A stretch of DNA of 64,000 nt. Source: Rhizobiales bacterium 62-17 (GTDB lineage Bacteria > Pseudomonadota > Alphaproteobacteria > Rhizobiales > Beijerinckiaceae). The stretch spans positions 486,752 to 550,751 of the forward strand of contig MKVW01000009.1 in the NCBI GenBank assembly GCA_001898965.1, given 5' to 3'. The notes below the pieces were generated by a model. It saw only the letters and a list, made by a program, of their open reading frames with translations, did not search any database and was not told the DNA's origin. The position numbers and the translations under genes were made by a program. The number at the start of each line of letters is the position of its first letter. Position 1 is the stretch's first letter. Positions 34,912-46,867 of this stretch are shown here, piece by piece.

Positions 34912-36291
34912 ATGGTTAGCGAACTGTCCCACGGCCCTCCCGTCCCGGCAATCGCGCCCATGACCCTGGTTGCCCCTCCGGAATCCTCAGGCCGGATCCG
35001 CGTCGATACTCTTATTCGCCTGCGCTGGCTGGCGATCGGCGGCCAAACGGCGGCTTTGCTGATCATCGCCTTCGGCCTCGGCTTCCCTTTGCCGATCGCC
35101 TGGTGCGTCACGGCGGTTGCCGCTTCCGTCTGGCTCAACATCGGGTTGCGTCTGCGCTATCCGGTGACGCATCGCCTCGCCGAGCGCGAGGCCACGCTTC
35201 TGCTCGCCTTCGATATGTTGCAGCTCACCGCGCTGCTCTATCTCACCGGCGGTCTCGAAAATCCGTTCTCGATTCTGTTTCTCGCGCCGGTGATGATCTC
35301 GGCCGTATCGCTGTCGGTGACGCGCACTGTCGCGCTCGTCGTATTGATGGTGGCTTGCGCCACCTTCCTCGGCTTCTTCCAGCGGCCGCTGCCCTGGTAT
35401 CCGGGCATCGTTCTGCAACTGCCCTATCTCTATAAGATCGGCGTCTGGATCGCGTTGGTGCTCGGCGCCGTCTTCATCACCATCTATGCGTTTCGCGTCG
35501 CCGAGGAAGCGCGCCGCCTGTCCGACGCGCTTACCGCGACCGAACTTGTCCTTGCGCGAGAGCAGCATTTGACACAGCTCGACGGTCTGGCCGCCGCCGC
35601 CGCGCATGAACTGGGCACGCCGCTCGCCACCATTACCCTGGTGGTGAAAGAAATGCGCAAGCAATTGTCGGCCGATGCCACGATCGCCGAAGATCTCGAT
35701 TTGCTGACGACGGAATTGCAGCGCTGCCGCACCATCCTTGGCAAGCTCACCTCGCTCGGCAATGAACCGGCACAGCATTGGGACGTGCTATCGCTGCCGC
35801 AACTGCTCGAGGAGACGGTGGAGCCGTCACGCGACTTCGGTGTCGAGTTGAAACCGGAAATCCAGGGCGAGGGCACGCCGCCGAATTGCCGGCGCAATCC
35901 CGGCCTGCTCTATGGCCTCGGCAATCTCGTCGAGAACGCGGTCGACTTCGCCAAGGCCGAGGTCCGCATCAGGGCCAATTGGACCAAGGATCAGGTCGGC
36001 ATCACCATCGAGGACGACGGCCCGGGTTTTTCCGCCGACGTGCTGACCAAGATCGGCGATCCCTACATCACCACCCGGGGCGGCCACGACGAGCGGCGGG
36101 CGAAGTCCGAGCCCGGCTCCGGGCTTGGCCTTGGCCTTTTTATCGCCAAAACCCTGCTCGAGCGCACCGGGGCGACGATTTCGATGGGCAACGCGGTGGC
36201 GCCGAAGGCCGGCGCGCGCATCTCAATCCGTTGGTCTCGCGAGGATTTTGAGCGCGGCACGATGTCCGACGGCCCTGTTCATGCTGATTGA
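34912..36291 (+). CDS. regB: RegB/PrrB/ActS redox-sensing histidine kinase
   Basis: 459 aa inner-membrane sensor. Seen: six hydrophobic segments within about residues 28-195, including the ubiquinone-binding motif of RegB, GGLENPF, at residues 113-119; H-box AAHELGTPLATI with H232; N-box GNLVENAVDFA; G-boxes DDGPGFS and GSGLGLGLFIAKTLLE. In RegB the membrane domain reads the quinone pool and controls energy, carbon and nitrogen metabolism. Partner regA follows after 88 bp. Called actS in Sinorhizobium. Confidence 0.93.
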   Translation: MVSELSHGPPVPAIAPMTLVAPPESSGRIRVDTLIRLRWLAIGGQTAALLIIAFGLGFPLPIAWCVTAVAASVWLNIGLRLRYPVTHRLAEREATLLLAFDMLQLTALLYLTGGLENPFSILFLAPVMISAVSLSVTRTVALVVLMVACATFLGFFQRPLPWYPGIVLQLPYLYKIGVWIALVLGAVFITIYAFRVAEEARRLSDALTATELVLAREQHLTQLDGLAAAAAHELGTPLATITLVVKEMRKQLSADATIAEDLDLLTTELQRCRTILGKLTSLGNEPAQHWDVLSLPQLLEETVEPSRDFGVELKPEIQGEGTPPNCRRNPGLLYGLGNLVENAVDFAKAEVRIRANWTKDQVGITIEDDGPGFSADVLTKIGDPYITTRGGHDERRAKSEPGSGLGLGLFIAKTLLERTGATISMGNAVAPKAGARISIRWSREDFERGTMSDGPVHAD

Positions 36292-36379
36292 ACGTGCAAT
36301 TGCTGCCCCATTTCGGCTAAATTCCAGCCGATCACAGGCCAAACCAATCCCTGGCTAAAAATCAGGAACCGAACGCAAA

Positions 36380-36928
36380 ATGACCACGCCGGAAACCGAG
36401 TCTGACGATAAATCCCTTCTGATCGTCGATGACGACAAGCCCTTCCTGACCCGCCTGTGCCGGGCCATGGAAGCGCGCGGATTTACCGTCGCGGTGGCCG
36501 AAACCGTGGCCGAGGGCATTGAGGCGATCAAGGTGCATCCGCCGGCCTTCGCCATCATCGACCTCAGGCTCACCGATGGCAGCGGCCTTGATGTCATTTC
36601 GCTGCTCAAGGAACGCCGGCCGGAAGCGCGCGGCATCATCTTGACCGGCTATGGCAACATCGCCACCGCCGTCACCGCCGTGAAGCTTGGCGCTTTCGAC
36701 TATCTCGCCAAGCCCGCCGATGCGGACGAGATTTACAACGCGCTGATGGCCATCACCCATGACAAGGCGCAGCTTCCCGAAAATCCGATGTCGGCCGATC
36801 GCGTGCGTTGGGAACATATCCAGCGCATCTACGAATTGTGCGGCCGCAACGTCTCCGAAACGGCCCGCCGTCTGAGCATGCATCGCCGCACCCTGCAGCG
36901 TATTCTCGCCAAGCGCGCGCCGCGCTGA
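36380..36928 (+). CDS. regA: RegA/PrrA/ActR response regulator
   Basis: 182 aa. Receiver domain (about residues 12-125) with acidic pocket IVDDDKPF, phosphoacceptor D61 in AIIDLRLTDG, T in ILTGYG and K in LAKPAD; then a linker of Pro-rich type and a Fis-type HTH in RVRWEHIQRIYELCGRNVSETARRLSMHRRTLQRILAKRAP, the near-invariant RegA DNA-binding region. Cognate of RegB upstream. No target gene in this window is obvious from sequence. Confidence 0.96.
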   Translation: MTTPETESDDKSLLIVDDDKPFLTRLCRAMEARGFTVAVAETVAEGIEAIKVHPPAFAIIDLRLTDGSGLDVISLLKERRPEARGIILTGYGNIATAVTAVKLGAFDYLAKPADADEIYNALMAITHDKAQLPENPMSADRVRWEHIQRIYELCGRNVSETARRLSMHRRTLQRILAKRAPR

Positions 36929-37105: not shown

Positions 37106-38035
37106 TCACCGCCGCCGTGCGGTGAGACGATCGAGATCGTCGAAGTAAACCGCGAAATAGCGCAAGGCGAGAATCGAAGCGGCCGACAATTGTCGTTCCG
37201 CCGCCGCGAACAATGTCAGCGATGCGGGAGAAATGCCTCTGTCGCTGAGCTCGGCGTAGGAAAAGCCCGGGGCCTTCGCATCGGCTTCCGCGCCGAGCGA
37301 CGTGACGAAACCAATGCCACGGCCCTGCGCCACCATTAAGCGAATGAAGCTCAGATTGTTCGCCGTCAGCATCGGTTTCAGCAATACCTTCGCGCGCAGC
37401 GCCAGTTTCTCGATGGCTTCGCGCAGATAGCCGATCGAGTCGGGAATGATCAGCGGATATTGCGCGCAATGGCTGAACGATATTTCCCGTTGGCCGGCGA
37501 GCTTGTGATCGCGCGGCACGAGCGCGCCAAAGCGAAAGCGTGCTTGCCGTTCGATGCGCAATGCTGGCGTCACTTGCGGGTCGAAGGCCAGGCCGAAGTC
37601 GGCTTGCCCGTCGAGGACGAGTTGTCGGATGCGATCGGGCTCGGCGACGGTCACGTGCAGATTGATGCGCGGATGGTCCTGCATGAAGCTCGCCAATGCA
37701 TTGGGCACGAAATCGAACGTCGCCTCCTCAACGACGGCGAGCTTCACTTCGCCGCGCCGCAGGCCGCGCAATTCCTCGATCTCGAATTTGATGCGCGACA
37801 GATCCTGCTGCCAGCGCCGAAAGCCGTAGATCAGGATTTCACCGGCGGCGGTGAGGCGTACGCCGCGCGGCAGGCGCTCGAACAGCGCCACGCCGAATTC
37901 TTCTTCCGCCAGCAGCAACTGCCGGTCGATCGCCGAGGCCGAGACGTTCAATTCCTCGGCGGCGCGGCGGATTGAGCCGAGTCGGGCCACTTCCTCGAAA
38001 TAGCGGGCGAAGCGGGAAAACACGAACCGGCTCAT
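37106..38035 (-). CDS. LysR-family transcriptional regulator
   Basis: 309 aa. Seen: N-terminal winged HTH RYFEEVARLGSIRRAAEELNVSASAIDRQLLLAEEEFGVALFERLPRGVRLTAAGE (about residues 8-65), then a periplasmic-binding-like effector domain starting KLAVVEEATFDF. It is divergent from the SLOG/ECF/PRTase operon at 38199, which is the usual arrangement for a LysR regulator and its target. Ligand unknown; it may be the compound transported or salvaged by that operon. Confidence 0.9.
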   Translation of the reverse strand: MSRFVFSRFARYFEEVARLGSIRRAAEELNVSASAIDRQLLLAEEEFGVALFERLPRGVRLTAAGEILIYGFRRWQQDLSRIKFEIEELRGLRRGEVKLAVVEEATFDFVPNALASFMQDHPRINLHVTVAEPDRIRQLVLDGQADFGLAFDPQVTPALRIERQARFRFGALVPRDHKLAGQREISFSHCAQYPLIIPDSIGYLREAIEKLALRAKVLLKPMLTANNLSFIRLMVAQGRGIGFVTSLGAEADAKAPGFSYAELSDRGISPASLTLFAAAERQLSAASILALRYFAVYFDDLDRLTARRR

Positions 38036-38198
38036 CGGCGCCTCAAGCGTTCTAAAAAATGCAACGGTAAGCCCAAAAAACGATGATTGTCAGCAGGTGT
38101 GCCGACGGCTCGATTGAGGCCCGCCAGCCAGTGCTACCGCCACAACGGGCGAGAGGCATGGCTTGGAATTTGCAAAGATCAGCCTCAGGAGCGGTGAC

Positions 38199-38795
38199 GT
38201 GCGCAAACCGAAGAGACCCCAACTGCCGGTGGTCGGCCTGATCGGCCCGACCAATCTGCGACGTATTTCCGAAGCCAGCGGCATTCCGGAGCGGACTTAT
38301 CGCGATTTGGCCTATGAAGCGGGCCGAACCATCGCCGAATGCGGGGCCATGCTCGCTGTCGTGCCCGATCGCGGCATCGCCGTGACGGGGATGCGCGGCT
38401 ACCGCGATGCACACGGTCCCTGGACCATCGGCCTGGTGCCCGACGGCGGTCCCTCAGACACTGTGGCGACGCCCAATTGCGTCGAAAACGCCGCCGCCTG
38501 TGACGAAATACTGGACGGTTTCACCTGGCATCATCAGCACGCGGCGATCTGCGAACTGTCGAATTTGCTGCTCTGCGTCGGACTTTCCTGTGGAACGATG
38601 GCCGAGATCGCCTGGACAAAATGGGTCCATGGGCCGCGTGTTCTAGTCCTGCGTGAGACCATCAGCCTGATCCCCAAGGAGATCCTCGCGGAAACCGACG
38701 TGGTGTTCATCGATGATCTGAAGGCGCTCAAGGGTGCGGTCCAAGCGGCGTTGACGGGTCCCAAATCACTTCAAAACAAGCCTGTGGGAGCGTGA
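38199..38795 (+). CDS. SLOG/LOG-like nucleotide-binding protein (TIGR00725-like)
   Basis: 198 aa Rossmann-like protein. Seen: VVGLIGPTNLRRISEASG (N-terminal glycine-rich strand), GLVPDGGPSDT, and a C-terminal GLSCGTMAEIAW, where G132-T133 and E136 match the GT-x-x-E part of the LOG PGGxGTxxE motif, although the preceding PGG is replaced. LOG enzymes release a nucleobase from a nucleoside 5'-monophosphate; SLOG relatives may only bind nucleotide-derived ligands. GTG 38199 chosen because AGGAG lies 7 bp upstream. First gene of the ECF cluster. Confidence 0.72.
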   Translation: MRKPKRPQLPVVGLIGPTNLRRISEASGIPERTYRDLAYEAGRTIAECGAMLAVVPDRGIAVTGMRGYRDAHGPWTIGLVPDGGPSDTVATPNCVENAAACDEILDGFTWHHQHAAICELSNLLLCVGLSCGTMAEIAWTKWVHGPRVLVLRETISLIPKEILAETDVVFIDDLKALKGAVQAALTGPKSLQNKPVGA

Positions 38796-38796
38796 G

Positions 38797-39378
38797 ATGA
38801 GCATGGAAATCTCCTATAACGACAAGCAGTCGACAGCCCTTTTCCCGATCGTCCTCGCCGTCATTTGTGGCGTCGCGACGGGGGTTTTGTGGGCCTACGC
38901 CAATCCGATCCAGCTCGTGCCCGGTGTCATCCAGTGGCGCATCTTCGCCTTCCTGCCGCCCTTGGTCGGCCTGCTGCTTGGGCCGCGCTCCGGCTTCATC
39001 TGCGGCTATGTCGGCACCGTCGTCTGGTCGCTGCTCGCCGGCACCTTCATCCCGCTGCATTCGCTGGTGATTGACGGCATCATGGTCGGTGCGACGGGCG
39101 CCATACCGCCGCTCCTGGTCAATCTGCGCAAGACCAATTTCGATCTGTCCATGCCGGTCCTGGTCAAGGTGGCTTTGATCTGCGCCGTGGTCGGCATCGT
39201 CATGGTGGCGGCGGTTTCGGCCAGCCTCGCCTATCTCGGCATTTTCCCCTTCTGGTACGCGATGCTTTACATCGGCCTTTCCGATATTGTTCCGATGGTG
39301 ATCGGCACGCCGCTGCTGCTGCGCCCGGCCGTGCGTATTCTGGCTGGCATCAGCCGCGGGACGCTCCATCGCTTCTGA
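38797..39378 (+). CDS. ECF transporter S component (substrate-binding membrane protein)
   Basis: 193 aa, five to six membrane segments (ALFPIVLAVICGVATGVLWAY; IFAFLPPLVGLLLGP; GFICGYVGTVVWSLLAGTF; IMVGATGAIPPLLV; VALICAVVGIVMVAAVSASLAYL; AMLYIGLSDIVPMVIGTPLLL). Size, topology and position before ecfA and ecfT identify it as the substrate-binding S component. No known S family (BioY, ThiT, RibU, FolT and so on) was matched by eye. The vitamin or base it binds is unknown; the SLOG and phosphoribosyltransferase neighbours suggest a nucleobase-like compound. Confidence 0.78.
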   Translation: MSMEISYNDKQSTALFPIVLAVICGVATGVLWAYANPIQLVPGVIQWRIFAFLPPLVGLLLGPRSGFICGYVGTVVWSLLAGTFIPLHSLVIDGIMVGATGAIPPLLVNLRKTNFDLSMPVLVKVALICAVVGIVMVAAVSASLAYLGIFPFWYAMLYIGLSDIVPMVIGTPLLLRPAVRILAGISRGTLHRF

Positions 39379-39391
39379 CCGGACAGGTGAA

Positions 39392-40939
39392 ATGTTGCGT
39401 TTAGAAGGATTGACGGTCGGCTTTCGAGCCGACCGGGACGTAATCAGTTCGATCGATCTGTCGATTGAAGCCGGCAGCACGGTGATCATCACCGGCGCCG
39501 CCGGATGCGGAAAATCCACGCTGCTCGCCGCCATGAGCGGCATCATTCCGAAATTGCTGCATCCGTTGCGCATGCAAGGCGCCGTGACCTTGCAGGGCAC
39601 CGATTATCGCGCCTTGAAGCCCGCCGATGTCTTCCGTCAGGTTGGCGTCGTCTTGCAGGCGGTGGAGGATCAGACCTGGGACCTGACGGTCGAGGATCTC
39701 GTCGCCTTCCCGCTCGAAAATCGTGGCGTGCCGCAGGCGGAAGTGCGCACGCGCGTCGCCGCCGCCGTCGAGAAAATGGGTCTGGTCGAATTGCTCGGCC
39801 GCAAAGTCCGCACCCTGTCGGGTGGCGAACGCCGCCGTGTCGCCCTGGCCTCCGCCCTCGTCTGGCAGCCGGCCCTGCTGGTGCTCGATGAGCCGACCAC
39901 CGGCCTCGATCCCGATGCGCGCCGCCGCATGATCGTCCTGCTGCAGGAGTTGCGCGCCGAAAACCTCACCATCGTCATCGCCGAACAGGACCTCGCCTGG
40001 TTTGATGGCTTGGCCGATCGCGTCGTCTTCCTGGCTGACGGCAAGGTCATCGCCGATCAGCCGTGGAGCGAAGCGATCAGGAACACGGCTGCCTTCGACA
40101 CGGTCGGCATCGAAGCGCCGTTCCTGGCGCATCAAAGCTGCGTGCCGACGGTTCCGACGCAAGAGCCGCAGCGGCTCAAGGTCGAGGCGCTGACCTCCGA
40201 TCTCTGCCGCGCCGACAAACAGCCCGTGCTGCGCTCCATCCATCTCACCGTCGGTCAAGGCGAAGTCGTCGGCCTGATCGGCTGCAACGGCGCCGGCAAG
40301 ACCACGCTCATGCGCGCGTTGCTGGGCCTCCAGACCTCCTCGCGCGGCACCATCGCCATCGATGGCGAGCCCTGTCGCGACTGGTCGATCGCGCAGCGCG
40401 CGCGCCGCATCGGCTATGTGCCGCAAAACCTGCGGCGCATGTTCTTTCAGCTCTCCGTGCTCGACGAAATTGTGTTCTCGCTTTCCGGCGGCCAGAGCGG
40501 TGCCAAACAGGTCGAGCAGCACAAGGCCGCTGCTCTGGACCTGCTCGGCCGCGTCGGCCTTACCGCCAAATCGGCGGAATCGCCGTTCTCGCTCTCCAAT
40601 CGCGAACAGCTTCTTCTCGCCATCGCCTGCGTCGAGGCGACTGAGCCGTCGCTGATCATTCTCGACGAACCCTTGATCGCCCGCGACAAGCAGTGGCGCG
40701 GCGAGCTGATGGCCTTCTTCGCCCGCTGCCGGCAAGCTGGTCGCGGTGTGCTGCTCGTCTCGCACGATCTGCCCTTGATCGACATGGCGGCGGATCGGGT
40801 GTTGATCCTCGCCTCCGGTGAAATCGAATTCGATGGCGCCACGCCTTCGGCCTGGACGTCGCAAGCCTTCGTTCGCCTCGGCTGGCCGAGCCCGCTCAAC
40901 CATCCGCAGTCCACGGAGCCACGTCATGCACTGGCTTGA
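39392..40939 (+). CDS. ECF transporter fused A components (two ABC ATPase domains)
   Basis: 515 aa. Domain 1 (1-235): Walker A GAAGCGKST (G35-T43), signature LSGGERRRVALASAL, Walker B LLVLDEPTTGLDP. Domain 2 (about 262-505): Walker A GCNGAGKTT (G297-T305), signature FSLSNREQLLLAIACVEAT, Walker B LIILDEPLIARD. The second signature (LSNREQ) departs from LSGGQ, and its D-loop lacks the usual GLD. Domain 1 therefore looks canonical and domain 2 partly degenerate, suggesting asymmetric ATP sites. Fused EcfA-EcfA' proteins are found in several bacteria. ATP drives uptake at the inner membrane. Confidence 0.85.
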   Translation: MLRLEGLTVGFRADRDVISSIDLSIEAGSTVIITGAAGCGKSTLLAAMSGIIPKLLHPLRMQGAVTLQGTDYRALKPADVFRQVGVVLQAVEDQTWDLTVEDLVAFPLENRGVPQAEVRTRVAAAVEKMGLVELLGRKVRTLSGGERRRVALASALVWQPALLVLDEPTTGLDPDARRRMIVLLQELRAENLTIVIAEQDLAWFDGLADRVVFLADGKVIADQPWSEAIRNTAAFDTVGIEAPFLAHQSCVPTVPTQEPQRLKVEALTSDLCRADKQPVLRSIHLTVGQGEVVGLIGCNGAGKTTLMRALLGLQTSSRGTIAIDGEPCRDWSIAQRARRIGYVPQNLRRMFFQLSVLDEIVFSLSGGQSGAKQVEQHKAAALDLLGRVGLTAKSAESPFSLSNREQLLLAIACVEATEPSLIILDEPLIARDKQWRGELMAFFARCRQAGRGVLLVSHDLPLIDMAADRVLILASGEIEFDGATPSAWTSQAFVRLGWPSPLNHPQSTEPRHALA

Positions 40940-41594
40940 TCGGATCAATCCTTTCCTCAAGCTCGCCATCGCCGCCCTGGTGACGGCAGCAAGCTGGCTC
41001 GCGCCCAATGCCATCGTCGCGATGGCTTTGGCGGCGGCGGTCCTGCTGTTCATGCTCTATTGCCGGTTGCCGGCGGCATCGGGTTATTTCAAGATCATCG
41101 GCCTCGTCGCCGTCCTCGTCACGGCGAGCTGGGCGCTGACCTTCATCAGCCGAGGCATGGCCTATGACGCGGCCATCGCCGAGGCGATCAGGCTTGCCTG
41201 CCGTCTCATCGTCACGACAGGCAGTTTCTTCATCGCCATCGAAACCACCTCCGCCGGCGTGCTGCTCGCCGCCTGCGGCAAGGCCCGCCTGCCGGGCACA
41301 TTCACTCTGGTACTCTTCCTCGTCGTCGGCATGATTCCGCTGATGCGCGAGGAATTCCAGGCGATCGGCGATGTGCAGCGGGCGCGCGGCCTCGAACTCG
41401 ATCGCGGCCCCATCCTGCGGCGCGTGCTGCACACCTTGGCGCGTGGCGTACCGCTGATGGTGCAGACCTATCGCATGGCGGAAGCCATTTCCCTCACCTT
41501 GTCGCTCTATGGTTTCGACCCGGGCGTCAAACGCACCTCCTGGCGCGATGTCGGTTTGATCGCCGTCCAGAACAATTTTTCTCTGAGATCGTGA
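40926..41594 (+). CDS. ECF transporter T component
   Basis: 222 aa. Transmembrane scaffold that couples the A domains to the S component. Seen: NPFLKLAIAALVTAASWLAPN, FMLYCRLPAASGYFKIIGLVAVLVTASWALTFIS, VLFLVVGMIPLMREEFQAIGDVQRARGLEL with the first coupling RARG motif; a second signature near the C-terminus is ISLTLSLYGFDPG, less typical. The ATG 40926 overlaps the EcfA stop by 14 bp; the upstream frame from 40818 is antisense-like and is not real. Translational coupling is likely. Confidence 0.82.
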   Translation: MHWLDRINPFLKLAIAALVTAASWLAPNAIVAMALAAAVLLFMLYCRLPAASGYFKIIGLVAVLVTASWALTFISRGMAYDAAIAEAIRLACRLIVTTGSFFIAIETTSAGVLLAACGKARLPGTFTLVLFLVVGMIPLMREEFQAIGDVQRARGLELDRGPILRRVLHTLARGVPLMVQTYRMAEAISLTLSLYGFDPGVKRTSWRDVGLIAVQNNFSLRS

Positions 41595-41606
41595 GCCGTT
41601 GAAAAG

Positions 41607-42245
41607 ATGACCGAACTTTTCCCGAAGACCCACACTGTCGATATTGCCGGCGAGAAGATCGCCCTGCCGATCGTCAAGATCCACGATACGCTCGCCATCT
41701 CATTGTTGATGGTGATCGACATGGGCGTGAAGTTCGGCGAGCGCATCGGCGCCGCGATGGCCAAGCGCTTCGCCGCGAAACAGCCCGACATCGTTGTCGG
41801 CAGCGCCACTTTGGGCATTCCCGTCGCCATCGAACTGTCGCGCCATCTCGGCCTCGATCAATACGTGATCTTGCAGAAGTCGCCGAAAATCCATCTGGGT
41901 GACGCGCTGGTCGAACAGGTGAAGTCGGTGACTTCAGCCGGGTCGCAGCGCCTGCTGCTCGACCGTCAGGCCATCAAATTGCTCAAGGGCAAGCGCGTCG
42001 TCATTGTCGATGACGTGGTGGCGACGGGATCGAGCATGGCGGCGGCCGTTCGTCTCGTCCGCCAGGCCGGCGGCGACATCGTCGGCATCGGCGTTATCCT
42101 GACCGAAGGCCACGACTGGCGGCCGGTGCTTGGCGACGATGCCAAGCTGGTCACCGGTCTTGGCCACATTCCGCAGTTCAAGATCGCCAACGGCATCGCC
42201 ACGCCCGATCCGGCGACCGAAGCGGATGCCGTACCTGCGCATTAA
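41607..42245 (+). CDS. Phosphoribosyltransferase (purine PRTase-like)
   Basis: 212 aa. Seen: PRPP-binding loop VVIVDDVVATGSSMAAAVRLVRQAGG (the VDDxxATG[S/T] motif), and QPDIVVGSATLGIPVAIELSRHLG. Resembles adenine/xanthine phosphoribosyltransferases but with an unusual N-terminus. It joins a base to PRPP to give a nucleotide. Being last in the ECF cluster, 12 bp after ecfT, it may trap the imported base as its nucleotide. Actual substrate unknown. Confidence 0.82.
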   Translation: MTELFPKTHTVDIAGEKIALPIVKIHDTLAISLLMVIDMGVKFGERIGAAMAKRFAAKQPDIVVGSATLGIPVAIELSRHLGLDQYVILQKSPKIHLGDALVEQVKSVTSAGSQRLLLDRQAIKLLKGKRVVIVDDVVATGSSMAAAVRLVRQAGGDIVGIGVILTEGHDWRPVLGDDAKLVTGLGHIPQFKIANGIATPDPATEADAVPAH

Positions 42246-42293
42246 GGGTTCAGGGTCGAAGCCTCCCCGGACACAAAGATCGCAGACCTATTC

Positions 42294-42767
42294 CTATCCA
42301 ATCGGATCGCGCGTCGGATCGTAAAGCAGGTGCAGACGGCTCGCTGCCTGCTGGCCGAAGGCGATCAGCATCGCCTTGCGCCGCGCCGCGTTGAGCACAT
42401 GCTCCGATGGCGGGCGAATAATCTCGGCGCCGAATTTGTCGGCGACGATCAGCCCGCATTCCTTCGGAAAAATCTCCAGCGGCACGTCCGCATGGGTGGC
42501 GAAGGAGAAGTGATCGCAATAGTCGCGATATTCATGCCATTTCTTGTCGGTACGAAAATCGATGACGCTCGATTTCACCTCAACGATATGAAAGCGCCCG
42601 TCACCGCCAAGCCCGATCACATCGGCACGCCGGCCATTGTTCAGCGGCATTTCGACAAGCGATTCCAGCCGATGCGCGCGCATCAATCGCTGCACGCCGC
42701 GCATCACCATGGCCGCATGCGCGGACTGGCGTTTGTCTTCGGGCGGAATGGGTGATTCGGTATTCAT
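42294..42767 (-). CDS. mmcB: MmcB-family DNA repair nuclease-like protein
   Basis: 157 aa. MmcB (PF06319) is an alphaproteobacterial protein that in Caulobacter is induced by mitomycin C damage independently of SOS. Seen: PLNNGRRADVIGLGGDGRFHIVEVKSS, resembling a PD-(D/E)xK nuclease core (D, then E-x-K), and YCDHFSFATHADVPLEIFPKECGLIVADKFGAEIIR. ATG 42767. Located 14 bp downstream of btuD on the same strand, so it may share the B12 transcript, although the function is unrelated. Confidence 0.85.
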   Translation of the reverse strand: MNTESPIPPEDKRQSAHAAMVMRGVQRLMRAHRLESLVEMPLNNGRRADVIGLGGDGRFHIVEVKSSVIDFRTDKKWHEYRDYCDHFSFATHADVPLEIFPKECGLIVADKFGAEIIRPPSEHVLNAARRKAMLIAFGQQAASRLHLLYDPTRDPIG

Positions 42768-42781
42768 CTAGGGCTTCTTGA

Positions 42782-43570
42782 TCAGCCCCGATCTAAATCC
42801 CGATGCGGCCGCATGGCAAGAATGGGTCCGTCCAGCGTTTGCACCTGTGCCACCGCCACGCCGAAAATATCGCTCAACTGGTCTGTTTTCAGGAGGTCTT
42901 GCGGCGGGCCATCGGCCACAAGGCGCCCGTCCTTGAAGGCGAGCAGGCGCGTCGCATAGCGCACGGCGAAGTCGATGTCGTGAATGACGGCGATGACGAG
43001 CGCGCCCGATTCGGCGCGCTGGCGGAACAGCGCCATCACCCGCAATTGATGCGCCGGATCGAGTGAATTCAGGGGTTCGTCGAGCAGAACGATCGGTTGC
43101 GGCCCGACCATCGCCCGGGCCAGCAGCGCGCGCATGCGTTCGCCGCCGGATATCCGGTCGACGCCGCGCTCGGCCAAAGCCACGAGATCGAAATCCTGCA
43201 ATTGCCGCTCGACCGCCGGATCATCGCCGGCAGCCTGTGCATCGAACGGCATCAGGCCCAAGGCCACGATGTCGCGCACCGGCACCGGCCAGATCGGTTG
43301 GCGCATGTCTTGCGGCAGATAGGACAGGGCTTTGGCCTTCTGCGGCAGCGACAGACGTTCGATCGTCGTGCCATTGATCGCGATCGTGCCGGTGATCGTC
43401 ATCTGGCCGGCGAGTGCCCGCAGGAACGTCGTCTTGCCCGAACCATTGGGGCCGATCACCGCGACGAACTGGCCGCCATCAAGCGATACGCTCACATCCT
43501 CGATGATCGCACGGCCGGCGAGCGACACGCTTAGGCGATCGATGCGGAGCTGGGTGGTTGCGGCACTCAT
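42782..43570 (-). CDS. btuD: Vitamin B12 (cobalamin) ABC transporter ATP-binding protein
   Basis: 262 aa. Seen: Walker A GPNGSGKTT, Q-loop YLPQDM, signature ISGGERMRALLARAM, Walker B PIVLLDEPLNSLDP, and switch HDIDF. A FecE/HmuV-type ATPase. B12 is inferred from the riboswitch-controlled btuB upstream and the divergent btuF and cobP; the ATPase alone would also fit ferric siderophore uptake. Start ATG 43570 overlaps the btuC stop. Confidence 0.87.
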   Translation of the reverse strand: MSAATTQLRIDRLSVSLAGRAIIEDVSVSLDGGQFVAVIGPNGSGKTTFLRALAGQMTITGTIAINGTTIERLSLPQKAKALSYLPQDMRQPIWPVPVRDIVALGLMPFDAQAAGDDPAVERQLQDFDLVALAERGVDRISGGERMRALLARAMVGPQPIVLLDEPLNSLDPAHQLRVMALFRQRAESGALVIAVIHDIDFAVRYATRLLAFKDGRLVADGPPQDLLKTDQLSDIFGVAVAQVQTLDGPILAMRPHRDLDRG

Positions 43571-44619
43571 GCGCGATCATCCAGCCGATAGGGGCGGGCG
43601 ATGACGAGATAGAGGAAACACGGCGCGCCGATCACCGCCATCAAGGCGCCGACGCGAATTTCGCTCGTCGCCGGAATGAGCTTCACCAACACGTCGGCCG
43701 CCGTGGTCAGAATGGCGCCAGCCAGAGCCGAAGGCAGCAGCACCGCTTGCGCGTCGGAACGCACGAAGGGCCGCACCATATGCGGCGCCAGCAGGCCGAC
43801 GAAACCGATGGCGCCGGAAACCGCCGTGCCGGCGCCGACGCCGAGCGCGATGCCGGCGCTGGTGATCAGCGACACCCGCCAGATGTCGAAGCCCAGCGAT
43901 GTCGCTGTCTCTTCGCCAAGCGTCAGCGCCTTATAGGCCGGGCCGCACCAGAACAGCGCGGCCGCGCCGACGATGATGAAGGGCAGCGACAAAACCACAT
44001 GCCACATCGAACGGTCGGTGAACGAGCCCATCAGCCAGAAGACGATCTCCGTCACGGCGTAAGGGTTCGAGGAGAGCGACAGGATCAGTGAAATGGCGGC
44101 GGCGGCGAGGCTGCCGATCATCAGGCCGATGAGCAGAAGTGAAATCACGCCGCCGACCCGGCGCACGACCAGCAAAGTCGCCAGCATGGCCAGCAGCGCG
44201 CCGACGATGGCGGCCAGCGGCAAAGCCAGCGAGAAGGCATCGGCGAGGCCGGAATAGATCATCAGCACGGCGCCGAGCGCCGCCGCCTGCGGCGTACCCA
44301 AAACGGCCGGCTCGGCCAGCGGATTGCGGCTCAACCCCTGCACGGCCGCGCCGGCGAGGCCCAGCATGCCGCCGATGGAGAGCGAGAGAATGAGGCGCGG
44401 CAGCCGGATTTCGCGCAGGATGATCGCGGCGGTCTCGCTTTGCCCCGTCAGGCCGAGAAAGAGTTCGGACAGCGACAGATGCGCCGGCCCCAGCATCAAG
44501 GACAGAACGGCGACGACGACCAGCGCGATGGTGAGCAGAAGCAGAAAGGCTCCGGAGGCGGCCGCAGCGCTCCGGAGCCTGGGTCGTTCAGCAGACGTGA
44601 CGTTCGTCGAACCTACCAT
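43567..44619 (-). CDS. btuC: Vitamin B12 ABC transporter permease
   Basis: 350 aa FecCD/BtuC-type permease with about ten hydrophobic segments. Seen: family motif SIGGMLGLAGAAVQGLSRNPLAEPAVLGT near residues 86-114 and SGAIGFVGLLAPHMVRPFV near 265-283, which contacts the ATPase. It lies between btuB (7-bp overlap) and btuD (4-bp overlap), so the three are one operon on the minus strand. Specificity inferred from the cobalamin riboswitch. Confidence 0.88.
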   Translation of the reverse strand: MVGSTNVTSAERPRLRSAAAASGAFLLLLTIALVVVAVLSLMLGPAHLSLSELFLGLTGQSETAAIILREIRLPRLILSLSIGGMLGLAGAAVQGLSRNPLAEPAVLGTPQAAALGAVLMIYSGLADAFSLALPLAAIVGALLAMLATLLVVRRVGGVISLLLIGLMIGSLAAAAISLILSLSSNPYAVTEIVFWLMGSFTDRSMWHVVLSLPFIIVGAAALFWCGPAYKALTLGEETATSLGFDIWRVSLITSAGIALGVGAGTAVSGAIGFVGLLAPHMVRPFVRSDAQAVLLPSALAGAILTTAADVLVKLIPATSEIRVGALMAVIGAPCFLYLVIARPYRLDDRA

Positions 44620-46625
44620 GTCACCTTCAAGCCGGCGTAGATGGCGCGGCCGGTCACGCCATAATCCCGGATCTCTTGATAGCGCGCATTGGTGATGTTT
44701 TCGAGCCGGGCGTAAGCGGTGATGTAATCGTTGAACTTATAGCTGGCGCGCAGATCGGCCCGGCCATATTGCGGCAGGGTCACGCGGCCATAGGGGAAGT
44801 CGTTGCTGACGTCGGTGCGGGTCGAGGCGGCGTAGATGCGGCCTTCCACTTCCAGGTTCGGGATGCCGGTATAGATGAGCGACAGGCTGCCCTGCTGGCG
44901 CGGCCGGCGTAAAAGGCCGATCTGCTTGTCCTCGTCGACGGCGGTCATGCCGGTAAAGGTGGCGCGGGCCCGCCAGGTGTCGGGAACGATGACCGCATCG
45001 ATCGAAGCTTCGACGCCGCGAATGCGGGCATGACCGACGTTGTAATATTGGCCGATGAAGAAATTGGCCGCCGGATTGAAGTCGATCAGGTTGCGATACC
45101 AGCTATCGAACAGGGTCACCGAGGCTTTCACGCGACCGTCGAGTAAGGTCTGGTCGATGCCCGCTTCATAAGAGAAGTTCTGTTCCGGCCGCAGGCTTGG
45201 CAGACCATAGATGCTGAAGCGCTGATAGAGCGAAGCGGCATGGGCGCCGGTGCCGGCGCTGACGCGCAGTCGCGTGCCGGTTTCCTCGATGCGATAGGCG
45301 GCGGTGGCACGCCAGGTCGGGAACACGGTCTTGTTGTCGATCGCATCGATGCGCCCGCCCAAGGTCAGGTCGAGCCGGTCGAGCAGCGTGATGCTATGCT
45401 GGGCGAACACCGAATTGGTGACCTGTGTGCCCCAGAACGGCATCGAAACCGTATAGGGCGCCTGCAGCCAGTTCTCGCGCGTCGAAGCGGTTTCGCGCTC
45501 CGACTTGGCGCCGAAGATGAACTGGCCATAGGTGCCGAGATTGGCCGTGCCCTGATATTCGACGCCGAGGCGACGCGAACGGAAGGTCGTGTCGCAATTG
45601 TAGCTGTTGAAGAACGTGTCGAAACACGACTGCTCCAGCCGGTTGAACCGTTCGATGAGGCTCGAATAGATGGTCAGCGAATTCTTCAGCACGCCGCCGA
45701 ACGGATCGAAATTGGCGCGCACGAACGCGGTGGTGACGAACTGCCGCCCCTTGTTGAAGCGCGTGTCCTTGTCGGCCGGCATGAAGGCGCCAGGATTGTC
45801 GAAGCGGGCGAAATCGGCGAAGCGCGTCAGTCCGACATCGACGGAGAAACTGTCGGACGGCGTGAAGGTCACCCGCGCCGAACCGGCGAATTTGTCGGTC
45901 TTGTCGTTTTCCAGCGGCTGCGTCAGCGTGCTGGTGATGCGACCGATGCGATAGCCGTAGCGCGAGAAACCGTCGCTGTGAAAGCCGGTCAGCGAGAAGG
46001 CATAGGACACTTTGTCGGTCGCGCCCGACACGGCGCCGGTCGCCGAAATCGTGCCATAGCTGCCCGCTTCCACCTGCACGCTGCGGCGCATCGCGCGCTC
46101 GCCCTTGCGGGTGAGGACATTGATCACGCCGCCCATGGCATCGGAGCCATAGAGCGCCGATTGCGGGCCGCGTACGATTTCGATGCGGTCGATGTCGACG
46201 GCCGACAATGCGCCGAAGTCGAGCGCGCCATCGGTGCTGGACGCATCGCCGACGCGAATGCCGTCGATCAGCACGAGCGTCTGGCCGGGCGTGGACCCAC
46301 GCAGCGAGACATTCGACAGGGAACCGGGGCCGCCGCTTTCCGTGAAATTGAGGCCGGGCGTGCCGCGCAGCACGTCGGCAAGGCTCTTGGTGCCGTAGTT
46401 CTGAATCTCTTCGGCCGGAATGACCGTCACGCTTGCACCCAGCCGTTCGATCGGCAGCGGCGTGCGATTGGCGGTGACGACCAGCGTCGGCAGCGGCACA
46501 TAGCCTGGCGTGGTGATCTGCCCTGGGTTAGCGTCCTGCGCCTGCGCCGCCTGCGGCAGAAACGGTGCGGACAAACAAAAAACGCCAGCCACGATGGCGG
46601 CGTTGCCAGGGAAACGATGCGTCAC
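44613..46625 (-). CDS. btuB: TonB-dependent vitamin B12 outer-membrane receptor (BtuB-like)
   Basis: About 670 aa. Seen: signal peptide (AAIVAGVFCLSAPFLPQAAQA), TonB box TLVVTANR, plug domain (IPAEEIQNYGTKSLADVLRGTPGL, RIEIVRGPQSALYGSDAMGGVINVLTRKG), and a C-terminal barrel strand ending in GRAIYAGLKVTW with the final aromatic. The start is GTG 46625 preceded by AGGAGG 6 bp upstream; the earlier frame start at 46730 would lie in the riboswitch. Regulated by the cobalamin riboswitch at 46665-46836. Confidence 0.92.
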   Translation of the reverse strand: MTHRFPGNAAIVAGVFCLSAPFLPQAAQAQDANPGQITTPGYVPLPTLVVTANRTPLPIERLGASVTVIPAEEIQNYGTKSLADVLRGTPGLNFTESGGPGSLSNVSLRGSTPGQTLVLIDGIRVGDASSTDGALDFGALSAVDIDRIEIVRGPQSALYGSDAMGGVINVLTRKGERAMRRSVQVEAGSYGTISATGAVSGATDKVSYAFSLTGFHSDGFSRYGYRIGRITSTLTQPLENDKTDKFAGSARVTFTPSDSFSVDVGLTRFADFARFDNPGAFMPADKDTRFNKGRQFVTTAFVRANFDPFGGVLKNSLTIYSSLIERFNRLEQSCFDTFFNSYNCDTTFRSRRLGVEYQGTANLGTYGQFIFGAKSERETASTRENWLQAPYTVSMPFWGTQVTNSVFAQHSITLLDRLDLTLGGRIDAIDNKTVFPTWRATAAYRIEETGTRLRVSAGTGAHAASLYQRFSIYGLPSLRPEQNFSYEAGIDQTLLDGRVKASVTLFDSWYRNLIDFNPAANFFIGQYYNVGHARIRGVEASIDAVIVPDTWRARATFTGMTAVDEDKQIGLLRRPRQQGSLSLIYTGIPNLEVEGRIYAASTRTDVSNDFPYGRVTLPQYGRADLRASYKFNDYITAYARLENITNARYQEIRDYGVTGRAIYAGLKVTW

Positions 46626-46664
46626 AATAGACCTCCTGCCATCCCACCGACGGCGCGAGAAAAA

Positions 46665-46836
46665 CTGGGATGTTGGCCGGTCTCCTGGCTTGCGGATCAT
46701 CGCTGGCTTCGCGTCTTCCCGGGCGATCACCCAGTGACTTGGTACGAAGTCAGCTCATCGCTTACAGTTGCGGGGGCAGCTACGGCATCGGTTTCCCTCA
46801 CCGTATTCCCGTTTCACCCCATCGCTGGGGCACCAA
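46665..46836 (-). ncRNA. Cobalamin riboswitch (adenosylcobalamin-type) upstream of btuB
   Basis: Minus strand reads GGTGCC near 46834, GGGAATACGGTGAGGGAAACC in two parts (46810-46790), the B12 box GCCCCCGCAACTGTAA (46777-46762) and GCCAGGAGACCGGCC (46689-46675), in the canonical order. After it, CATCCCA (on the minus strand at 46672-46666) can pair with TGGGATG (46646-46640) just before the AGGAGG site of btuB, a plausible expression platform for blocking translation. Boundaries are approximate. Confidence 0.93.
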
Positions 46837-46867
46837 CGATTGTGACCCTATAGAGGCGTTTTTGCGA

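Follow-up and report, generated by a model that had tools for sequence, protein, structure and literature searches.

What does an energy-coupling factor (ECF) transporter carry when its operon ends in a phosphoribosyltransferase (PRTase) gene? We asked this of a locus in Rhizobiales bacterium 62-17, within a 64,000-nucleotide stretch of contig MKVW01000009.1 (the whole of which we call the window), where a LysR-type regulator gene stands divergently at the head of five plus-strand genes encoding a SLOG (LOG-like Rossmann) protein, a putative substrate-binding membrane (S) unit, a fused double ATP-binding cassette (ABC) ATPase (A-A', or AA), a T unit and a PRTase. A sequence-only reading of this DNA had placed the six genes correctly and had proposed that they take up a purine-like or cytokinin-like base and salvage it as a nucleotide. 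Having compared the locus with its relatives, we lean towards a reading in which these genes encode a divergent member of the ECF-type importers, specific for a nucleobase-like ring, whose cargo would be trapped through phosphoribosylation by the dedicated PRTase. The transporter class and the PRTase class are both already known; what would be new is the S family, the pairing with a PRTase and the asymmetry of the ECF module.

A PRTase gene is the constant partner of the ECF genes

The five plus-strand genes are closely packed, with spacings of +1, +13, -14 and +12 bp in the order SLOG, S, AA, T and PRTase. The AA gene (39392-40939, plus strand) encodes a protein that matches PF00005 over its cut-off, in two stretches, and has one degenerate composite ATP site; the T gene (40926-41594, plus strand) matches PF02361 (CbiQ) at 61.3 bits against a cut-off of 25; and the last gene (41607-42245, plus strand) encodes a type I PRTase of 212 amino acids, of an adenine PRTase (APRT)-like subfamily, which scores 71.9 bits against PF00156 (cut-off 26.3).

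A PRTase-led scan of genome contigs returned at least 250 relatives, of which the best 80 loci were kept. Nineteen of these best 80 (L002-L020) carry a PRTase at least 59% identical to that of the window. An S unit lies inside 12 of the 80, every one of them within this group of 19, and tblastn at 1e-4 detected no S unit in the remaining 61 loci (33-40% identity). An S-led search, added to offset the bias of the PRTase-led one, returned six plasmid records (two of them from one strain) and 6 of 397 genomes of the order, the window's own genome included, and at all 12 places the S, AA, T and PRTase genes are consecutive in that order (the locus in genome G247 was read through L005). Gene calls in the relatives are mechanical, and the tblastn listings of loci omit AA matches below 35% identity as well as any match above E 1e-4. 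The S search matched the window's own genome alone both in a sample of the class (1 of 385) and in a sample of the phylum (1 of 398). The named matches judged to lie outside the order are one Geminicoccaceae plasmid and Celeribacter. Among Alphaproteobacteria, then, the cassette is rare and patchy.

We compared 19 distinct loci (the window, L002-L010, L013, L015, L017, L082, L083 and L093-L096). The layout LysR-SLOG-S-AA-T-PRT is found in the window and L096, LysR-SLOG-PRT1-S-AA-T-PRT2 in L005, LysR-PRT1-S-AA-T-PRT2 in nine loci (L003, L004, L006-L010, L013 and L017), and S-AA-T-PRT, where neither the LysR nor the SLOG gene of the window had a detected relative, in seven (L002, L015, L082, L083, L093, L094 and L095). 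A second PRTase, present in 10 of the 19 loci, brackets the ECF genes; four further Rhizobium plasmid records, outside the 19, show the PRT1/PRT2 layout, and Rhizobium tropici CIAT 899 carries LysR-PRT1-S-AA-T-PRT2. Because S-AA-T-PRTase is found in all 19 loci and in the four further plasmid records, this gene order exceeds chance, and since the genes flanking the cassette vary between loci, where scanned, the PRTase is the constant partner of the ECF genes.

Across the 397 genomes of the order, S relatives occur in 6, PRTase relatives (E up to 1e-40) in 9 and SLOG relatives (E up to 1e-10) in 3. The PRTase is present in 6 of 6 genomes with S as against 3 of the 391 others (Fisher p 1.6e-11), and S in 3 of 3 genomes with SLOG (Fisher p 1.9e-6), p values that are a rough guide, as the genomes are not independent and the 397-genome samples were taken as the same draw. 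The idea that SLOG, ECF and PRTase genes co-occur elsewhere thus holds for the ECF genes with the PRTase, but not for SLOG as a core part, SLOG being found in 3 of the 19 loci. In the literature searched, which covered few subscription journals, we found no case of an ECF transporter and a nucleobase PRTase forming such a pair.

One ATP site and one T-unit signature are altered in all compared loci

The fused ATPase is asymmetric. In its first nucleotide-binding domain (NBD1) the signature reads LSGGE and the His-loop is replaced by E/DQD, a change of His to Gln, in 19 of 19 loci; in NBD2, LSGGQ is replaced by LSxR (x being A, N, S, T or V) and SHD is present, again in all 19. Walker A and Walker B are retained in both halves. 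Each ABC ATP site is composed of the Walker and His motifs of one half and the signature of the other, so the loss of the His in NBD1 and the loss of LSGGQ in NBD2 fall on one and the same composite site. We infer that ATP would be hydrolyzed mainly at the one competent site, in which the Walker motifs and His-loop of NBD2 face the LSGGE of NBD1. Within these 19 loci, over which the asymmetry was counted, the full set of ABC motifs (Walker A and B, LSGGQ and His) is not found in both ATPase domains; ECF A units typically bear LSGGQ and the His (excerpts of PMC3246461).

In all 19 loci the T unit retains the first of its two signatures, as ARG or SRG, and has no Arg in the second, where Tyr stands in 17, Asn in one and Ser in one. 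Both signatures align without gaps to EcfT of 4hzu, the second stretch opposite its EARGY. The second-signature Arg is present in 5 of 5 control T units from genomes of the same order (11 PF02361 matches were found in 7 of 10 genomes, six of them members of this family; the other five served as controls, with frames chosen by eye). According to excerpts of PMC3246461, nothing in T components is more strongly conserved than the two Arg signatures. By homology the protein appears to be an ECF T unit, yet one that departs from the two-Arg-signature rule. The asymmetric module, fixed across 19 loci, would provide a naturally occurring case in which to ask whether an ECF transporter requires two ATP sites and two T arginines.

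With ECF vitamin transporters (EcfAA'T plus S, for example BioMNY) the cassette shares a membrane S unit, a pair of ABC ATPase domains, a T unit of CbiQ type and an operon that lacks a binding-protein gene. It differs in an S unit that lies under the cut-offs of known families, in the degeneracy of one ATP site, in a T unit that lacks the second-signature Arg in 19 of 19 loci, and in its constant PRTase partner.

The cassette PRTase is an additional enzyme related to adenine PRTases

Among NCBIfam models, the PRTase is nearest to PRK07322 ("adenine PRTase"; 129.8 bits, under the cut-off of 143), and it scores 48.2 bits against the canonical apt model TIGR01090 (cut-off 185.85). Its best relatives in the PDB are 5zgo (an adenine PRTase), 6fsp (an adenine/guanine PRTase) and 7f06 (an adenine phosphopsicosyltransferase), the last presumably being AgmE of the angustmycin pathway. 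With 7f06 and the adenine PRTases of the PRK07322 kind (5zgo and 6fsp) it shares similarity over most of its length and the stretch that binds phosphoribosyl pyrophosphate (PRPP), which we take to be the VVIVDDVVATGSS present in its sequence. It differs from these enzymes in lying under both the PRK07322 and the apt cut-offs, and in having a canonical apt besides in the same genome, where a separate protein scores 222.3 bits and there are eight PF00156 matches including the cassette PRTase. The cassette PRTase was therefore rejected as the host's canonical apt, and because that enzyme is already there, the cassette PRTase is an extra one that would serve another need.

Might the protein be a sensor rather than an enzyme? 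The Pur operon repressors 1p4a and 1o57 match it, and the two PRTases that flank the ECF genes in 10 of 19 loci would suit a protein resembling PurR or xanthine phosphoribosyltransferase (XPRT) that controls the importer post-translationally or transcriptionally. However, a profile search found no DNA-binding domain in its 212 amino acids, the locus already has a LysR regulator, and all seven genomes tested carry a close relative of the PRTase without the importer; we regard a sensor of this kind as quite improbable.

In a tree of 44 PRTase rows, the PRT2 proteins, the S-adjacent PRTases of the loci without the LysR relative (except L002) and three Ancylobacter PRTases (L018, L019 and L020) form one starred group, and distant rows from Firmicutes, Chloroflexi and Saezia sit on long branches. 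The window PRTase lies outside that group and in no starred set; by path it is nearest to L096 and L002. The three Ancylobacter PRTases group with loci that carry S, and their genomes are without S; a loss of the importer is possible.

Neighbors of related PRTases hint at base salvage

Ten close PRTases stand outside ECF loci (L011, L012, L014, L016, L018-L020, G250, G293 and G058), a set whose members are not independent (L011 and L012 are alike, as are L018 and L020) and whose neighbors were scanned in part, with L011 and L018 excluded. Two of the ten, L014 and L128 (the latter from G293), have both a nucleoside hydrolase gene and genes of an ABC importer close by. The PRTase open reading frame (ORF) of L014, in Ferrovibrio, overlaps an NMT1-type binding-protein gene by 8 bp (mechanical starts) and has ABC ATPase and permease genes among its neighbors. 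The L014 nucleoside hydrolase is nearest to UriH (259.8 bits, cut-off 450), and also nearby are genes for a dehydrogenase of DHO_dh type, its electron-transfer partner and a hydrolase of the hydantoinase/carbamoylase family. L128 has a divergent ABC operon of the Bmp type whose last gene encodes a hydrolase nearest to RihA (225.0 bits, cut-off 433), RihC and UriH. PfkB kinases, a broad and uninformative family, lie near the PRTase in L016 and L127, and most of the other non-ECF neighborhoods consist of sugar, dehydrogenase and signaling genes.

The neighbors in L014 and L128 hint at base salvage. That the substrate might be a pyrimidine nucleoside is a mere hint, because the names of the ABC genes differ and the hydrolases score far under their cut-offs; by sequence the PRTase is related to adenine-type enzymes, and the clues from neighboring genes are weak and lean towards pyrimidines. 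Of the uptake-and-salvage system originally envisaged, a nucleobase-salvage flavor survives in these 2 of 10 loci, whereas a purine or cytokinin substrate finds no direct support.

The S unit and the case for a nucleobase-like cargo

The S gene (38797-39378, plus strand) encodes a protein below the cut-offs of PF12822, PF07155, PRK13661 and TIGR04518, the window protein reaching 20.0 bits against PF12822 (cut-off 30.7, E 7e-4). Its relatives are 60-81% identical, with a mean column identity of 84%. For 12 S rows, profile matches were judged by E-value (bit scores are for the window row only): Pfam matches were to PF12822 in five rows and to PF07155 in four (best E 3.3e-4), and the folate S family of NCBIfam was matched by nine (best E 0.013). 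No PDB sequence matched the S unit at E up to 1. Membership of a known S family was set aside, as the window protein lies under each of these cut-offs, its relatives are weak by E-value and the PDB gave no match; the impression gained from the sequence alone, that this S unit resembles no known family, is supported as far as those cut-offs go. The S gene of Rhizobium etli 8C-3 (L082, 7998-8570) is annotated "aminotriazole resistance protein", a label that is unverified and whose origin was not found; in the literature, the papers listed for this phrase are fungal or yeast papers.

In the nucleobase-importer reading, the S unit would capture its cargo, a nucleobase or similar ring, on the outside of the membrane; the T unit and fused double ATPase would then power release into the cell, with ATP hydrolyzed mostly at the one competent site. 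The PRTase would then join the ring to PRPP to yield a nucleotide unable to leak out, and the divergent LysR protein would control the operon. In the window's own genome and two relatives, the SLOG protein with its altered site may bind the resulting nucleotide or base and serve as sensor, chaperone or repair enzyme. Should the cargo be a base, the range of ECF transport would reach beyond vitamins and cofactors to bases, and uptake would be tied to salvage. More tentatively, and with rather more doubt, the cassette might represent an uncharacterized ECF class, found among the samples examined in Alphaproteobacteria alone. Such a class would collect nucleobases or base analogues present in traces, using one competent ATP site, a single Arg coupling signature in place of two, a dedicated PRTase and, in some members, a repurposed SLOG protein that reads the product.

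Import of a nucleobase-like ring is favored by the order S-AA-T-PRTase at all 12 S-led places, by the link between S and PRTase across the 397 genomes, by the constancy of the PRTase amid varying flanking genes, by its PRPP-binding stretch and adenine-type PDB relatives, by the separate apt, by the ABC importers and hydrolases near L014 and L128, and by T and A units that score over their family cut-offs. Several observations weigh against it. The role of the S unit leans on weak profile matches and on its operon position beside the T and A units, and DUF2232 is matched by 7 of the 12 S rows (best E 0.0015), more than PF12822. None of the seven genomes of L011, L012, L014, L016 and L018-L020 yielded an S unit when searched for one, so the PRTase is not tied to the importer; nor did the genomes G250, G293 and G058 in the 397-genome S search. 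The best names for the L014 ABC genes are mostly of the sulfonate/taurine/nitrate class, the L128 hydrolase lies about 6 kb from its PRTase, by NCBIfam the L128 ABC genes come closest to "putative B6 ABC transporter" subunits, at scores far under cut-off, and the hydrolases of both loci are far under their equivalog cut-offs. At the other 8 of the 10 loci, no base- or nucleoside-specific gene was found among the scanned neighbors. A ligand named by a riboswitch was likewise rejected, the window's one cobalamin riboswitch preceding other genes and none lying near the cassette in the 8 of 19 loci scanned.

A different cargo would be a vitamin- or cofactor-like ring other than a nucleobase (an imidazole, triazole, pyrimidine or pyridine), to which the PRTase would add ribose phosphate. 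Vitamins are the usual ligands of ECF S units (excerpts of PMC6609329 and PMC3246461), the weak S matches point to riboflavin and folate S profiles, the B6-named ABC genes stand near one related PRTase, and the unverified aminotriazole label on the R. etli S gene would fit as well. The PRTase itself, however, is of the PF00156 class and closest to adenine-type PRTases, and nucleoside hydrolases are found near related PRTases in 2 of 10 loci, so we consider a vitamin-like ring unlikely, though worth keeping in view.

An altered SLOG protein is an optional member of the cassette

The SLOG gene (38199-38795, plus strand) encodes a protein that matches PF18306 ("SLOG cluster4") at 30.4 bits against a cut-off of 26.3; its start was read as a GTG preceded by AGGAG, the mechanical ORF starting earlier, at a TTG at 38163. 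SLOG is an optional and not a core member of the cassette: it is missing from 16 of the 19 loci, and in all three genomes of the order that have a SLOG relative, the gene sits at this cassette type.

LOG enzymes bear the motif PGGxGTxxE and use a catalytic Glu and a catalytic Arg (excerpts of PMC4979012). When aligned with the LOG protein of the window's own genome (L107), the three SLOG members read GLSCGTMAE, GLSCGTMAE and GLSCGTLTE at this position; the GT-x-x-E remarked upon earlier is indeed present, as GTMAE, and the catalytic Glu (E136) is retained. At the place of the catalytic Arg all three members have Gln (Gln113), and the first glycine loop of LOG, GGGSHGLMG, is VPDRGIAVTG in the window protein. 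Alignment to 2iz5, the molybdenum cofactor carrier protein, is weak (E 0.02) and would place a His opposite the Arg; on either alignment the Arg is absent. The likeness to LOG cytokinin-activating phosphoribohydrolases thus comprises the SLOG class by profile together with the GT and catalytic Glu of the motif; the differences are Gln for the catalytic Arg, GLS for PGG and the altered glycine loop.

Because the Arg and PGG are replaced, we favor ligand binding over LOG-type hydrolysis, which seems unlikely; of the two roles suggested at the outset, hydrolase and ligand sensor, it is the first that loses ground. According to excerpts of PMC6459960, SLOG proteins bind nucleotides or ligands, and one branch, that of YpsA, has PRTases as partners; the cassette would be a concrete place to learn the ligands of catalytically altered SLOG proteins.

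A working LOG-type phosphoribohydrolase would imply that a cytokinin-like base is imported and cycled between base and nucleotide, or that wrong PRTase nucleotides are cleaned out. There is precedent for such a pair in the angustmycin cluster, which likewise has a LOG-family protein (AgmA) and an APRT-like enzyme with APRTase activity (AgmE) that cooperate in synthesis, but which is biosynthetic, with major facilitator superfamily transporters proposed to export and, in the excerpts at hand, no mention of an ECF importer (PMC8599513). Overexpressed yeast LOG1 protects from toxic base analogues, and by analogy a sanitizing role such as that proposed for it is possible for SLOG (excerpts of PMC5940212). 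The window's own genome holds a second PRTase/LOG-class pair (L141, 1040-2394), in which 20 bp separate a pyrE-like PRTase ORF (named by eye) from the LOG-like ORF downstream of it, and the retained E136 would also suit a hydrolase. Set against these points are the replacement of Arg by Gln113 in all three members, the exchange of PGG for GLS and the 16 loci without SLOG, which leave a functioning LOG-type enzyme a faint prospect.

Regulation and surrounding genes

The LysR gene (37106-38035, minus strand) scores 67.6 bits against PF00126 (HTH_1) and 126.7 bits against PF03466 (LysR_substrate), both over cut-off. Counting the window, 12 of 19 loci have a relative of this gene in divergent orientation at the start of the cassette, as do 4 of 4 of the further Rhizobium plasmid records; L095 has another LysR-family gene about 0.9 kb upstream. 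We compared the divergent intergenic control region (38036-38198, no strand) in sequence with that of the Rhizobium relatives, which have blocks in common of which the window shares little. Palindrome lists drawn up for the control regions gave no common site as a LysR box, and no sigma-70-like site was found in 38036-38198; a promoter scan gave 0 promoter-like sites as compared with 0.9 in shuffles. A terminator scan gave one terminator-like site, within AA, against 3.4 in shuffles. Rfam gave no credible match at 37900-42400, and a riboswitch search near the cassette in 8 of the 19 loci found none.

Beyond the LysR gene, the ORF list holds sensor kinase-like and response-regulator-like genes (34912-36928). 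Also beside the cassette are BtuCD-like ABC genes and a TonB-receptor-like gene (42782-46852, names by eye), which are preceded by the cobalamin riboswitch (RF00174, 128.1 bits) on the minus strand at 46658-46852.

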